Assembly: GCF_030540825.1 (NCBI RefSeq)
Contig: NZ_JAUOEO010000001.1
Span: forward strand, 531,001 to 595,000
Length of the DNA stretch: 64,000 nucleotides
Reading direction: 5' to 3'
Source: Flavivirga spongiicola
GTDB taxonomy: Bacteria > Bacteroidota > Bacteroidia > Flavobacteriales > Flavobacteriaceae
Below, one piece after another: positions 52,708 to 55,470 of this stretch. The notes beneath the pieces were generated by a model that saw only the letters and a list, made by a program, of their open reading frames with translations, was not told the origin of the DNA and did no database searches. A program made the position numbers and the translations under genes. Position 1 is the stretch's first letter. Each line of letters starts with the position of its first letter.

Positions 52708-54027
52708 ATGAACGACAATCTTATTCTCATTCTTACTATCGTTATTTCTGCTGTTATTGGTGCTTATTTAGGTATTCTTTTTATAAAACTTAAAACTAAA
52801 AGTGAAAAAAGCACGCTTGAAGAACGCCAAAAGCAAATGAGCTTAATTATTGATGATTTAAAGCAAAACTTAAATAAAGTTGAAAGTGAGCGCGAAGATA
52901 TTCGTCGCGAAAAAGATTTTTTAAACACAGAATTAACTCGAAAAAATACCGAATACGAAAATCTTCAACAACAAAATATAAAACGCGATAAAGAACTAGA
53001 AGAACGCCAAGAACAATTACGTAAAGATTTTGAACTTTTAGCCACTAAAATTCTTGATGAAAAATCAGAAAAATTCACACTTCAGAATAAAGAAAACATA
53101 AAGAATATTTTAAATCCGCTTCAAGAAAAAATTAAAACTTTCGAAGAAAAAGTAGATTTAACTCAAAAGGAAAGTATTAGTATGCATTCTGCTTTAAAAG
53201 AGCAATTACTAGGTTTAAAAGATCTTAATCAACAAATGACCAAAGAAGCTACCAACCTTACACGAGCCTTAAAAGGAGATAGTAAAATGCAAGGGAATTG
53301 GGGAGAATTGGTTTTAGAACGTGTTCTTGAAAAATCTGGATTAGAAAAAGACAGAGAATATTTTGTACAACAGAGTTTCACCTTAGATGATGGATCCAGA
53401 GTGCTACCCGATGTTGTTTTGCATCTTCCTGATAGCAAAAAGATGATTATCGATTCTAAAGTATCATTAACAGATTACGAACGTTTGGTAAATGCCGATG
53501 ATGACGATAAAATACCATTTTTAAAAGCACATGTTAATTCTATTAGAAAACATGTCGATCAACTTTCGGAAAAAAATTATCAAGATTTATATGATATAGA
53601 ATCGCCAGATTTTGTGCTCATGTTTATCCCTATAGAGCCTGCTTTTGCTGTAGTTGTAAACGAAGACAATGCTATATACAACAAAGCTTTTGAGAAAAAT
53701 ATTGTCATTGTAACACCATCCACTTTACTAGCCACGCTTCGTACTATCGATACCATGTGGAATAATGAAAAACAACAGCGAAATGCTATAGAAATTGCTA
53801 GACAAGCCGGTGCCTTATACGATAAGTTTGAAGGCCTGGTGAAAGATTTAACTGGTGTCGGCAAAAAAATTGATGCGGCAAAAACGGATTATTCTGCAGC
53901 TATGAACAAGTTGGTTGATGGCAAAGGTAATCTGGTTACAAGCGTTGAAAAACTAAAAAAAATGGGTGCTAAAGCTAAAAAAGCACTACCAGAAGCCATT
54001 ATAAAACGTGCAGAAGAAGACCATTAA
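52708..54027 (+). CDS. rmuC: DNA recombination protein RmuC
   Basis: A protein of 439 residues with an N-terminal membrane segment (about 4-25), a long coiled coil (about 30-130), and the RmuC nuclease-like domain (about 180-400) with KGDSKMQGNWGELVLERVLE, VLPDVVLHLPDSKKMIIDSK VSLTDYERL and FIPIEPAFAVV. RmuC limits inversions between short inverted repeats. Length normal. It is followed by the operator array of satD. Confidence 0.95.
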   Translation: MNDNLILILTIVISAVIGAYLGILFIKLKTKSEKSTLEERQKQMSLIIDDLKQNLNKVESEREDIRREKDFLNTELTRKNTEYENLQQQNIKRDKELEERQEQLRKDFELLATKILDEKSEKFTLQNKENIKNILNPLQEKIKTFEEKVDLTQKESISMHSALKEQLLGLKDLNQQMTKEATNLTRALKGDSKMQGNWGELVLERVLEKSGLEKDREYFVQQSFTLDDGSRVLPDVVLHLPDSKKMIIDSKVSLTDYERLVNADDDDKIPFLKAHVNSIRKHVDQLSEKNYQDLYDIESPDFVLMFIPIEPAFAVVVNEDNAIYNKAFEKNIVIVTPSTLLATLRTIDTMWNNEKQQRNAIEIARQAGALYDKFEGLVKDLTGVGKKIDAAKTDYSAAMNKLVDGKGNLVTSVEKLKKMGAKAKKALPEAIIKRAEEDH

Positions 54028-54038
54028 CAATGTTTTTT

Positions 54039-54140
54039 ATCACACAATAACGTGATATATCAAATTATCACATAAAAATGCGATATTATTGTTTATCACA
54101 CAAAAATGTGATACATTTGTTTATCACACAAAAACGTGAT
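54039..54140. promoter_or_regulatory. Four-copy operator array (18-bp dyads, 28-bp period) upstream of satD
   Basis: Four imperfect inverted repeats start at 54039, 54067, 54095 and 54123, exactly 28 nt apart: ATCACACAATAACGTGAT, ATCACATAAAAATGCGAT, ATCACACAAAAATGTGAT and ATCACACAAAAACGTGAT. Consensus arms ATCACA / yGTGAT, central A-rich. The last ends 2 nt before the satD ATG at 54143. Copy 3 sits between the -33 and -7 promoter boxes and copy 4 covers the expected transcript start, an arrangement expected for repression. The C-terminal helix-turn-helix of the SatD-like protein is the likely binder. Confidence 0.85.
54089..54119 (+). promoter_or_regulatory. Bacteroidota promoter of satD: TTG - N20 - TACATTTG
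   Basis: TTG at 54089-54091, 20-nt spacer, TACATTTG at 54112-54119, an excellent match to the housekeeping consensus (TTG, 17-23 nt, TAnnTTTG). The transcript would start near 54126, inside the fourth dyad. Confidence 0.75.
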
Positions 54141-54142
54141 GT

Positions 54143-54772
54143 ATGATATCAAACACAATAACAAGTGTCATAACGGGAGACATTATCAAGTCCAGAGCTC
54201 AGGTAAATCCAGAAGTATGGATAACGGTGCTAAAGAGAGCTTTATCTTATTTAAGTAATGATAAGGCCTACTGGGAAATATATCGCGGTGACAGTTTTCA
54301 AATAGAAATTAAAGATATTTACTCTAGCTTTATAGCTGCATTATATATAAAAGCCTGTATAAAATCCATTCATGGTTTAGATGTGCGTTTAGCTATAGGC
54401 ATTGGCAATAAAACCTACGAAGGCGAAAACGTAACAGAATCTAATGGAGAAGCCTTTGTGTTTTCGGGAGAAACACTGGAAACCTTGAAAAAAGAGAAAC
54501 AAAATTTACGCATAAAAACCAATAGTCATGAAATTGACGAAACATTAAATTTATATTTTAAGTTAGCCCTTATATCCATGGATAGCTGGACAGTGAATCT
54601 AGCAGAAATTGTTAAGTTAAGTATAGAAAAGCCTGATGCATTACAAAGCGAACTAGGAAAACTTATAGGTATAAATCAAAATGCAATAAGTACCAGGCAA
54701 AAAAGGGCTCATTTAGATGAAATCAAGGAGTTAGACCTTATGTACAGACAAAAAATAAATGCTTTAACATGA
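54143..54772 (+). CDS. SatD-family protein with cyclase/GGDEF-like palm features and C-terminal helix-turn-helix
   Basis: A protein of 209 residues. The N-terminal part (about 5-145) reads SVITGDIIKSR (Gly12-Asp13, Ser17), YRGDSFQIEI (48-57), DVRLAIGIG (80-88) and ESNGEAFVFSG (99-109), a sequence order that resembles palm-type nucleotidyl cyclase and GGDEF domains (RGDSFQ in the position of GGDEF); this likeness is my inference. The C-terminus (about 150-200) has a helix-turn-helix QSELGKLIGINQNAISTRQK R. Its stop overlaps the DUF3307 start by 4 nt. SatD-type proteins are often paired with DUF3307; function unknown. Confidence 0.8.
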   Translation: MISNTITSVITGDIIKSRAQVNPEVWITVLKRALSYLSNDKAYWEIYRGDSFQIEIKDIYSSFIAALYIKACIKSIHGLDVRLAIGIGNKTYEGENVTESNGEAFVFSGETLETLKKEKQNLRIKTNSHEIDETLNLYFKLALISMDSWTVNLAEIVKLSIEKPDALQSELGKLIGINQNAISTRQKRAHLDEIKELDLMYRQKINALT

Positions 54773-55470
54773 TACTACTAAAACTTTTATTAGCGCACTT
54801 AATTGGTGATTTTTTTCTGCAACCTCAAAAGTGGGTAAAAGAAAAAGAAAAGAAAAAATTAAAATCGCCAAAACTATATTTACACATACTAATTCATGTT
54901 TTGCTATTAATAGTATTACTATGGGATATATCGCTATGGCCATTTGTGCTAACAATAGGCGTTTCACATCTTTTAATTGATGGTTTTAAGCTTATTATTC
55001 AAAAGAAAAAAACAAAACGATTACTGTTTTTTATAGATCAGTTACTTCATATTTTAGTGATTATTGGGTGTTATTTTTTCTATTTAGACAATACATTTCA
55101 TTTAGAGTCTTTTATAACCGAAGACAATCTTTTACTACTAACTTGTTTATTGTTTTTAACAATTCCCGTCTCTATAATTATGAAAACCATTTTTTTAAAA
55201 TGGAATATTTCAGAACTTACTAAAAATAACGAGTCACTTAAGGATGCAGGCAAAATTATTGGTATTTTAGAACGTATTTTAGTGTTTATATTTATAATTG
55301 TAAATCACTGGGAAGCTGTTGGGTTTTTAATTACCGCTAAATCAGTTTTTAGATTTGGAGATTTAAAAGAATCCAAGGACAGACAGCTTACAGAGTATAT
55401 TTTAATAGGTACTTTAATCAGTTTTGGAATAGCAATAATTATAGGTATTATATATACCGTGTTAACTTAG
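54769..55470 (+). CDS. DUF3307 integral-membrane protein
   Basis: A protein of 233 residues with about six membrane segments. Polar residues inside membrane stretches are conserved in the family: AHLIGDFFLQP (His9, Asp13, Gln17), HILIHVLLL, GVSHLLIDGFK and FFIDQLLHI. Such buried His/Asp residues suggest a metal site or a membrane-embedded enzyme. Translationally coupled to satD (ATGA overlap) and followed 6 nt later by a thioesterase gene. Function unknown. Confidence 0.85.
   Translation: MILLKLLLAHLIGDFFLQPQKWVKEKEKKKLKSPKLYLHILIHVLLLIVLLWDISLWPFVLTIGVSHLLIDGFKLIIQKKKTKRLLFFIDQLLHILVIIGCYFFYLDNTFHLESFITEDNLLLLTCLLFLTIPVSIIMKTIFLKWNISELTKNNESLKDAGKIIGILERILVFIFIIVNHWEAVGFLITAKSVFRFGDLKESKDRQLTEYILIGTLISFGIAIIIGIIYTVLT

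Follow-up and report, generated by a model that had tools for sequence, protein, structure and literature searches.

What do four regularly spaced inverted repeats do when they lie across the promoter of satD? The question is raised by a 64,000-nucleotide (nt) stretch of the Flavivirga spongiicola genome, referred to here as the window, in which satD encodes a protein with a C-terminal helix-turn-helix (HTH) and is followed by a gene for a DUF3307 membrane protein. A preliminary description, made from the letters of the window, had proposed that SatD binds the repeats and represses its own operon. Our comparison of satD loci makes it likely that SatD dimers bind the array and repress the satD-DUF3307 operon, a reading carried above all by the persistence of the array ahead of satD across Bacteroidota and by the covariation of its half-sites with the recognition helix of SatD.

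The candidate operator array and the SatD recognition helix

The window sequence bore out the four 18-bp dyads with a period of exactly 28 nt, as well as the promoter described with them, TTG-N20-TACATTTG (54089-54119), in which the third copy fills the spacer and the fourth follows the -7 element (Table 1). The promoter is predicted from what we take to be the Bacteroidota-type consensus; as assigned in this way, it is satD's own promoter that the candidate operators overlap. The array sits between rmuC (52708-54027) and the satD start, with dyad 4 ending two bases before the ATG at 54143. When the whole window was scored for periodic dyads in 638 tiles of 200 nt, a single tile reached at least 47, namely that of the array (score 51, period 28), with the runner-up at 45 and a period of 35. 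The array in the Flavivirga window is not a chance feature.

satD was present in all 12 genomes of the genus; in wider samples, which overlap, it was found in 221 of 397 genomes for the family, 43 of 148 for the order and 99 of 395 for the phylum, and it was also located at 33 named loci. Upstream regions were compared at 197 Bacteroidota loci with distinct SatD proteins, comprising 137 from Flavobacteriaceae and 60 more divergent ones (two of these also Flavobacteriaceae). Because the half-site differs between clades, we did not search for a literal motif and instead scanned for three dyad-symmetric copies at any period from 20 to 40 nt (18 to 40 nt for the 60 divergent loci), with z-scores computed against 60 dinucleotide shuffles. 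Tandem dyads ahead of orthologous satD genes, which the preliminary description had expected, were indeed the rule: the best period was 28 in 133 of the 137 Flavobacteriaceae loci, and among the 60 divergent loci it was 28 or 29 in 45. At z>3, arrays were recovered at period 28 in 122 of the former, plus one locus at 29, and in 41 of the latter (22 at 28, 18 at 29 and one at 18). By score, an upstream array (at least 46, period 28 or 29) was found in 155 of the 197 loci and in none of 591 control windows.

For the comparison of operator with protein we kept the 158 loci at which three or more good copies were found, dropping 39 of the 197; their arrays hold 3 to 7 copies. The letters of the half-site depend on the clade, with ATCAC, ATTCC, ATTAG, ATCG and other classes, and TATTCC (35 of the 158), TATCAC (24), TATTAG (19) and TATAAG (18) were followed by TATCGT and TATCGG (13 each), TATTAC (7) and TATCAT (6). 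Of the ATCACA-N6-yGTGAT dyads first predicted for relatives, the tandem arrangement therefore held and the motif did not generalize, since with so many half-site classes among the arrays ATCAC is one dialect.

The sequence of the operator tracked the recognition helix. Mutual information was calculated over the 158 loci between every well-filled column of the SatD alignment and the half-site letters, and T184 (numbered on the window SatD) had the highest sum for letters 4-7 at 2.20, ahead of N180 at 1.42 and a median of 0.49. After average-product correction residue 184 was first for letter 4 and second to A181 for letter 5, with other columns ahead at letters 6 and 7. When operators were permuted within clades, which had been drawn from the SatD N-terminal domain, residue 184 kept first place at all four cluster thresholds (z of 18.1, 14.8, 10.9 and 8.3). 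Of the 314 branches in a tree of that domain, 19 carried both kinds of change (3.26 expected from 31 operator-class and 33 residue-class changes). Residue 184 again ranked first, here of 167 columns, with 18 of 43 substitutions on branches of operator-class change (4.2 expected, hypergeometric p 5e-10). Counted from the SatD alignment, a pattern-based reading of the helix having missed some loci, K at this position went with CC in 36 of 39 loci, Q with AG in 35 of 41, E or D with CG or CT in 28 of 30, and T, S, M or N with CA in 26 of 32. Residue 184 thus predicted the operator class in 125 of the 142 loci (of 158) with one of these residues; where it was R (6 loci) or another residue (10 loci), operator classes were mixed. 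The pairing of K with GG of the other strand, of Q with A and of E or D with C is chemically sensible. A SatD that reads the array should leave just such a pattern, and since the half-sites covary with its recognition helix, SatD itself is the likely binder, as the preliminary description had supposed.

Two side observations concern these half-sites. Six arrays (L026, L028, L029, L031, L054 and L060) have ATTCC and ATCAC copies next to each other, and such mixed arrays are possible intermediates of operator rewriting. One genome (G753) has two satD copies, L193 and L196, both with K at the helix position as judged by eye and with half-sites that are ATCAACC-like and ATCAGC/AACAACC-like, respectively.

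The arrays are also in phase with the promoter. In 83 of the 158 arrays a spacer held TAnnTTTG immediately 3' of a dyad, compared with 24 of 158 shuffled upstream stretches in which it occurred anywhere, and 112 of 137 scored positions shared one offset, at which the element begins on the final two bases of the 20-mer dyad. In 57 of the 83, a TTG stood at a suitable distance. Given this usual phase and the spaced TTG, the repeat period matches the distance from -33 to -7, so that a dyad fills the spacer.

Candidate operator sites are nearly confined to satD. In the 5.9-Mb Flavivirga host genome the strict pattern TATCRY-N8-RYGATA occurs at 13 places, made up of three adjacent copies of the array and 10 isolated sites (dyad 4 ends in G and misses the pattern), and a reversed control pattern occurs 19 times. 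Six genomes of the ATTCC class had 17 strict sites between them, 12 at satD and five isolated ones elsewhere; the control pattern likewise gave five.

Table 1. Features of the satD locus, in positions of the window
Feature	Position	Strand	Basis or remark
Candidate operator dyad 1, ATCACACAATAACGTGAT	54039..54056		Sequence; array kept upstream of orthologues
Candidate operator dyad 2, ATCACATAAAAATGCGAT; one imperfect arm	54067..54084		Sequence
Candidate operator dyad 3, ATCACACAAAAATGTGAT; occupies promoter spacer	54095..54112		Sequence
Candidate operator dyad 4, ATCACACAAAAACGTGAT; covers expected start site and short leader	54123..54140		Sequence
-33-like TTG, Bacteroidota-type promoter	54089..54091	+	Consensus match
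-7-like TACATTTG	54112..54119	+	Consensus match, N20 after TTG
satD, 209 aa; predicted N-terminal palm/cyclase-like domain (about residues 5-125) and C-terminal HTH	54143..54772	+
Codons of recognition helix 179-188 (residue 184, 54692-54694)	54677..54706	+	AlphaFold2 helix, covariation
DUF3307 (PF11750) membrane protein	54769..55470	+	Start overlaps satD stop (ATGA)

The SatD protein, its partner and their neighbours

The C-terminal HTH was upheld by the AlphaFold2 model, which predicts helices at residues 168-175 and 179-188 in a block with a predicted local distance difference test score (pLDDT) of 93-97. Its support from sequence searches was weak, with HipB-like matches at E 0.01 and 0.14, and in the latter search HMG-box chains scored almost equally. 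The window SatD itself had no Pfam match at E<=0.1 and none in the genome search with PF16264, the SatD family named for satD of the Streptococcus mutans sat genes, whereas its homologues do match that model: when the window protein was aligned with close relatives, 14 of the 26 aligned members matched PF16264 at E<=0.01 (best 9.3e-9). These relatives are 62-91% identical to the window SatD, which is homologous over its whole length to the proteins matching PF16264, and some are annotated as 'SatD family protein' or 'transcriptional regulator'. A list in PMC12005413 gives satD of S. suis as 'DNA-binding protein'.

The model of the N-terminal domain resembles class III adenylyl cyclases, GGDEF domains, Cas10 palms and GTP cyclohydrolase III with moderate scores (PDB 4wp9, 1y10, 4zvg and 2qv6 among the structural matches), from all of which SatD differs by its fused HTH. 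Alignment of SatD with cyclase profiles from related genomes (hhalign) was colinear, though weak (probability 39%, E 3e-4), and as a negative control the DUF3307 profile aligned with the cyclases over 7 columns at a probability of 0.2%. D13 and D50 are invariant in 38 diverse SatD rows and align with the FTD and GD metal aspartates of the cyclases. From the fold matches and the profile alignment we take the N-terminal half to be, in all probability, a palm domain that binds a nucleotide. The invariant Asn and Arg of the cyclases (N133 and R137 of cyclase alignment A4) lie where the alignment with SatD is gapped, and for this reason we favour nucleotide sensing over catalysis.

The partner protein matches PF11750 (E 4.5e-31), and Pfam yields no other family than DUF3307 for it. 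In 193 of the 197 loci satD is followed, on its own strand, by a DUF3307-like frame at a median offset of -4 nt, as judged with a profile derived from these loci; among the four misses, one is truncated at a contig end. The modelled fold had a predicted template modelling score (pTM) of 0.51 and no PDB match at E<=0.001, and we therefore claim no fold for DUF3307. A PHROGs search with DUF3307 returned one phage membrane-protein family and two weak families, the same search matched no family to SatD, and tblastn of DUF3307 gave no match in phage records. The text of PMC8504454 names DUF3307 for a jumbo phage.

At the 33 named loci, rmuC lies within 3 kb upstream of satD in 32, and a thioesterase gene lies 3' of the DUF3307 gene in 25 and between rmuC and satD in eight (L026, L028, L029, L031, L032, L033, L038 and L041), so that gene order has been rearranged in those eight genomes. 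The operon first envisaged, of satD, DUF3307 and possibly the thioesterase, is therefore kept for the first two genes, and its variable position makes the thioesterase a neighbour and no constant part of the unit. In Flavivirga the satD start codon is five codons 5' of the one that most relatives use (MTSVITGD; window 54143-54157), which is why the array nearly touches the ATG. Elsewhere, the satD matches at G061:C65:6716-7317 and G477:C7:13004-13599 each consist of two overlapping pieces, with a stop in one, which suggests a broken gene or an assembly error.

SatD-DUF3307 pairs are also carried on plasmids of Segatella, Pseudoalteromonas, Vibrio, Salinivibrio, Enterobacter, Sphingomonas and E. 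coli. The copy on a Vibrio lentus plasmid has three TTAGCC..GGCTAA dyads with a period of 28, and two Pseudoalteromonas plasmid records have two GTAAC..GTTAC dyads each, 28 apart. All three viral-contig copies found in one scan had period-29 arrays (best scores 46, 53 and 50), followed by frames that are DUF3307-like by eye. Among nine plasmid loci (L216-L224), the scan covered L216-L223, the SatD-like match at L224 being weak; one, L221, had a clear three-dyad array, and inspection of L223 by eye shows a pair of GTCAACC dyads 29 nt apart. On the Sphingomonas insulae plasmid (L218, NZ_CP048421.1 70070-76633) the pair stands in a defence-like neighbourhood, beside genes annotated as Pycsar effector and E2-associated cysteine-rich protein and with genes for an adenylate/guanylate cyclase and a TIR-domain protein. 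The mobilizable E. coli plasmid pEC34A (L220, 3,770 bp) has a SatD-like gene and then a DUF3307 gene which makes up much of the plasmid, and five Klebsiella records of the same length (H17-H21), seen as matches alone, have DUF3307 matches.

A proposed mechanism and its alternatives

In the mechanism that we propose, a SatD dimer would read each dyad with its two recognition helices, the invariant Gln179, Ser183 and Arg188 probably touching the constant outer TAT/ATA and the backbone, and residues 184, 180 and 181 reading the variable inner bases, as the covariation suggests. Dimers 28-29 bp apart would lie side by side and probably bind cooperatively. Because 28 bp correspond to 2.67 turns and 3 x 28 = 84 bp to about eight, neighbouring dimers should be rotated round the helix, and successive dimers would wind round the DNA with dimers 1 and 4 sharing a face. 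Since one dyad occupies the stretch from -33 to -7 and the following one covers the expected start site, a filled array should silence the satD-DUF3307 operon, which would amount to negative autoregulation of essentially one target. The palm domain with its two invariant aspartates probably binds nucleotide and Mg2+ and may thereby tune DNA binding or oligomerisation, and the purpose is probably to keep the DUF3307 membrane protein low until a signal changes.

Several observations weigh against this account. An array at z>3 was missing from 14 of the 137 Flavobacteriaceae loci, and 20 of the 60 divergent loci had none at period 28 or 29. The score threshold of 46 was picked after the first scan of the 137 loci had been inspected; the 591 control windows were coding sequence inside the same genes, which leaves the 638 window tiles as the sole control with intergenic DNA. 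The finder that chained the copies of the 158 arrays is biased towards a gap of 28 at the expense of 29 and 27, and its gap counts are therefore no independent evidence for the period. The branch analysis used a FastTree tree of the N-terminal domain alone, midpoint-rooted, with simple parsimony and arbitrary resolution of ties, and some of the co-changes are unexpected pairings, such as CA to CC with T/S/M/N to E/D. On plasmids, L216 and L219 have a dyad pair 28 apart with three-copy scores of 40 and 41, below the threshold, L222 has a weak pair, and L217, L218, L220 and L223 did not rise above control scores; by host, the Segatella and Sphingomonas copies showed no array and three further copies stayed at control level. 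At the viral locus L251 the array lies more than 100 nt 5' of the start assumed there, the nearest 200 nt scoring 44 and the next step 53.

The most serious competitor accepts that SatD binds the array and holds that it mainly activates, or switches between activation and repression with a ligand of the palm domain. Many arrays do have copies well 5' of the -7 box, and the distance from array to ATG varies (end of the last dyad from 0 to -80); dyads that occupy the promoter spacer and cover the start site, as in the window and, by the usual TAnnTTTG phase, in relatives, are nevertheless the classic layout of repression, and we judge activation unlikely. A true second-messenger cyclase that signals to DUF3307 in the manner of Pycsar, with the array as mere autoregulation, would account for the cyclase, GGDEF and palm fold matches, for the alignment of both metal aspartates and for the Sphingomonas insulae copy, which adjoins a Pycsar effector-annotated gene and a cyclase gene. 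It is hard to square with the gap at the catalytic Asn and Arg, with the absence of any PADLOC family for SatD or the DUF3307 protein at E<=0.1 and with DUF3307 being all that Pfam finds in the partner, and we regard it as improbable.

That SatD binds the array is argued from sequence, and sites for unlinked regulators are common at regulated genes, so the binder could in principle be a regulator encoded elsewhere with satD as one of its regulated genes. Such a regulator would leave unexplained why residue 184 of the SatD helix came first in three covariation analyses, why the sites are nearly confined to satD and why array and gene pair stay together on some Pseudomonadota plasmids and viral contigs, which makes it very improbable. 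Still less credible are RNA hairpins, of an attenuator or leader, or a neutral tandem repeat: every copy is an inverted repeat and slippage can create tandem repeats, yet with the promoter at its predicted place three of the four copies lie 5' of transcription, symmetry and period persist while the letters shift in step with the protein, and the control windows have no arrays. Binding of the array by SatD dimers, with repression of the satD-DUF3307 operon, therefore remains the reading that we prefer.

Relation to known systems and meaning

Phage repressors, antitoxins, partition-type regulators and controller proteins of restriction-modification systems have several operators at their own promoters. 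The SatD unit resembles these local autoregulators in having an HTH regulator first in the operon, tandem dyads over the promoter and essentially one target, and it differs from them in its predicted palm/cyclase-like domain, in a period of 28-29 bp that is widely kept while the half-site is rewritten, and in its DUF3307 membrane partner. It is like Pycsar, which combines a cyclase with a membrane effector, in that a cyclase-like protein stands beside a membrane protein, and one plasmid copy lies beside Pycsar-annotated genes, but it has an HTH and an operator array and lacks a PADLOC match. These sequence comparisons support our view of the unit as a repressor-operator system that regulates itself, in which a probable palm-type sensor is combined with an array whose letters can be rewritten while its geometry hardly changes.

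In Streptococcus pyogenes, satD is reported as essential in a re-analysis of transposon-sequencing data (PMC11323703), though it is present in 178 of 249 genomes. This would fit a SatD that restrains a harmful partner, if DUF3307 adjoins satD there, and is at most an indirect hint. More speculatively, SatD-DUF3307 might be a mobile and widespread unit in which a nucleotide-sensing palm repressor, as a helical filament on its 28-bp array, restrains a membrane effector, with operator and helix repeatedly rewritten together by a code of one amino-acid position and its bases, so that chromosomal, plasmid and phage copies avoid cross-repression; we consider this larger picture doubtful.

For two families, SatD and DUF3307, for which we found no operator, ligand or mechanism in the mostly open-access literature searched, the analysis proposes a regulator, an operator and a likely target. 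The loci also form a natural series of changes in protein-DNA specificity, with one geometry, several half-site classes, one predictive helix residue and 31 inferred operator-class changes, and the putative control switch offers a route to the study of the DUF3307 membrane protein.
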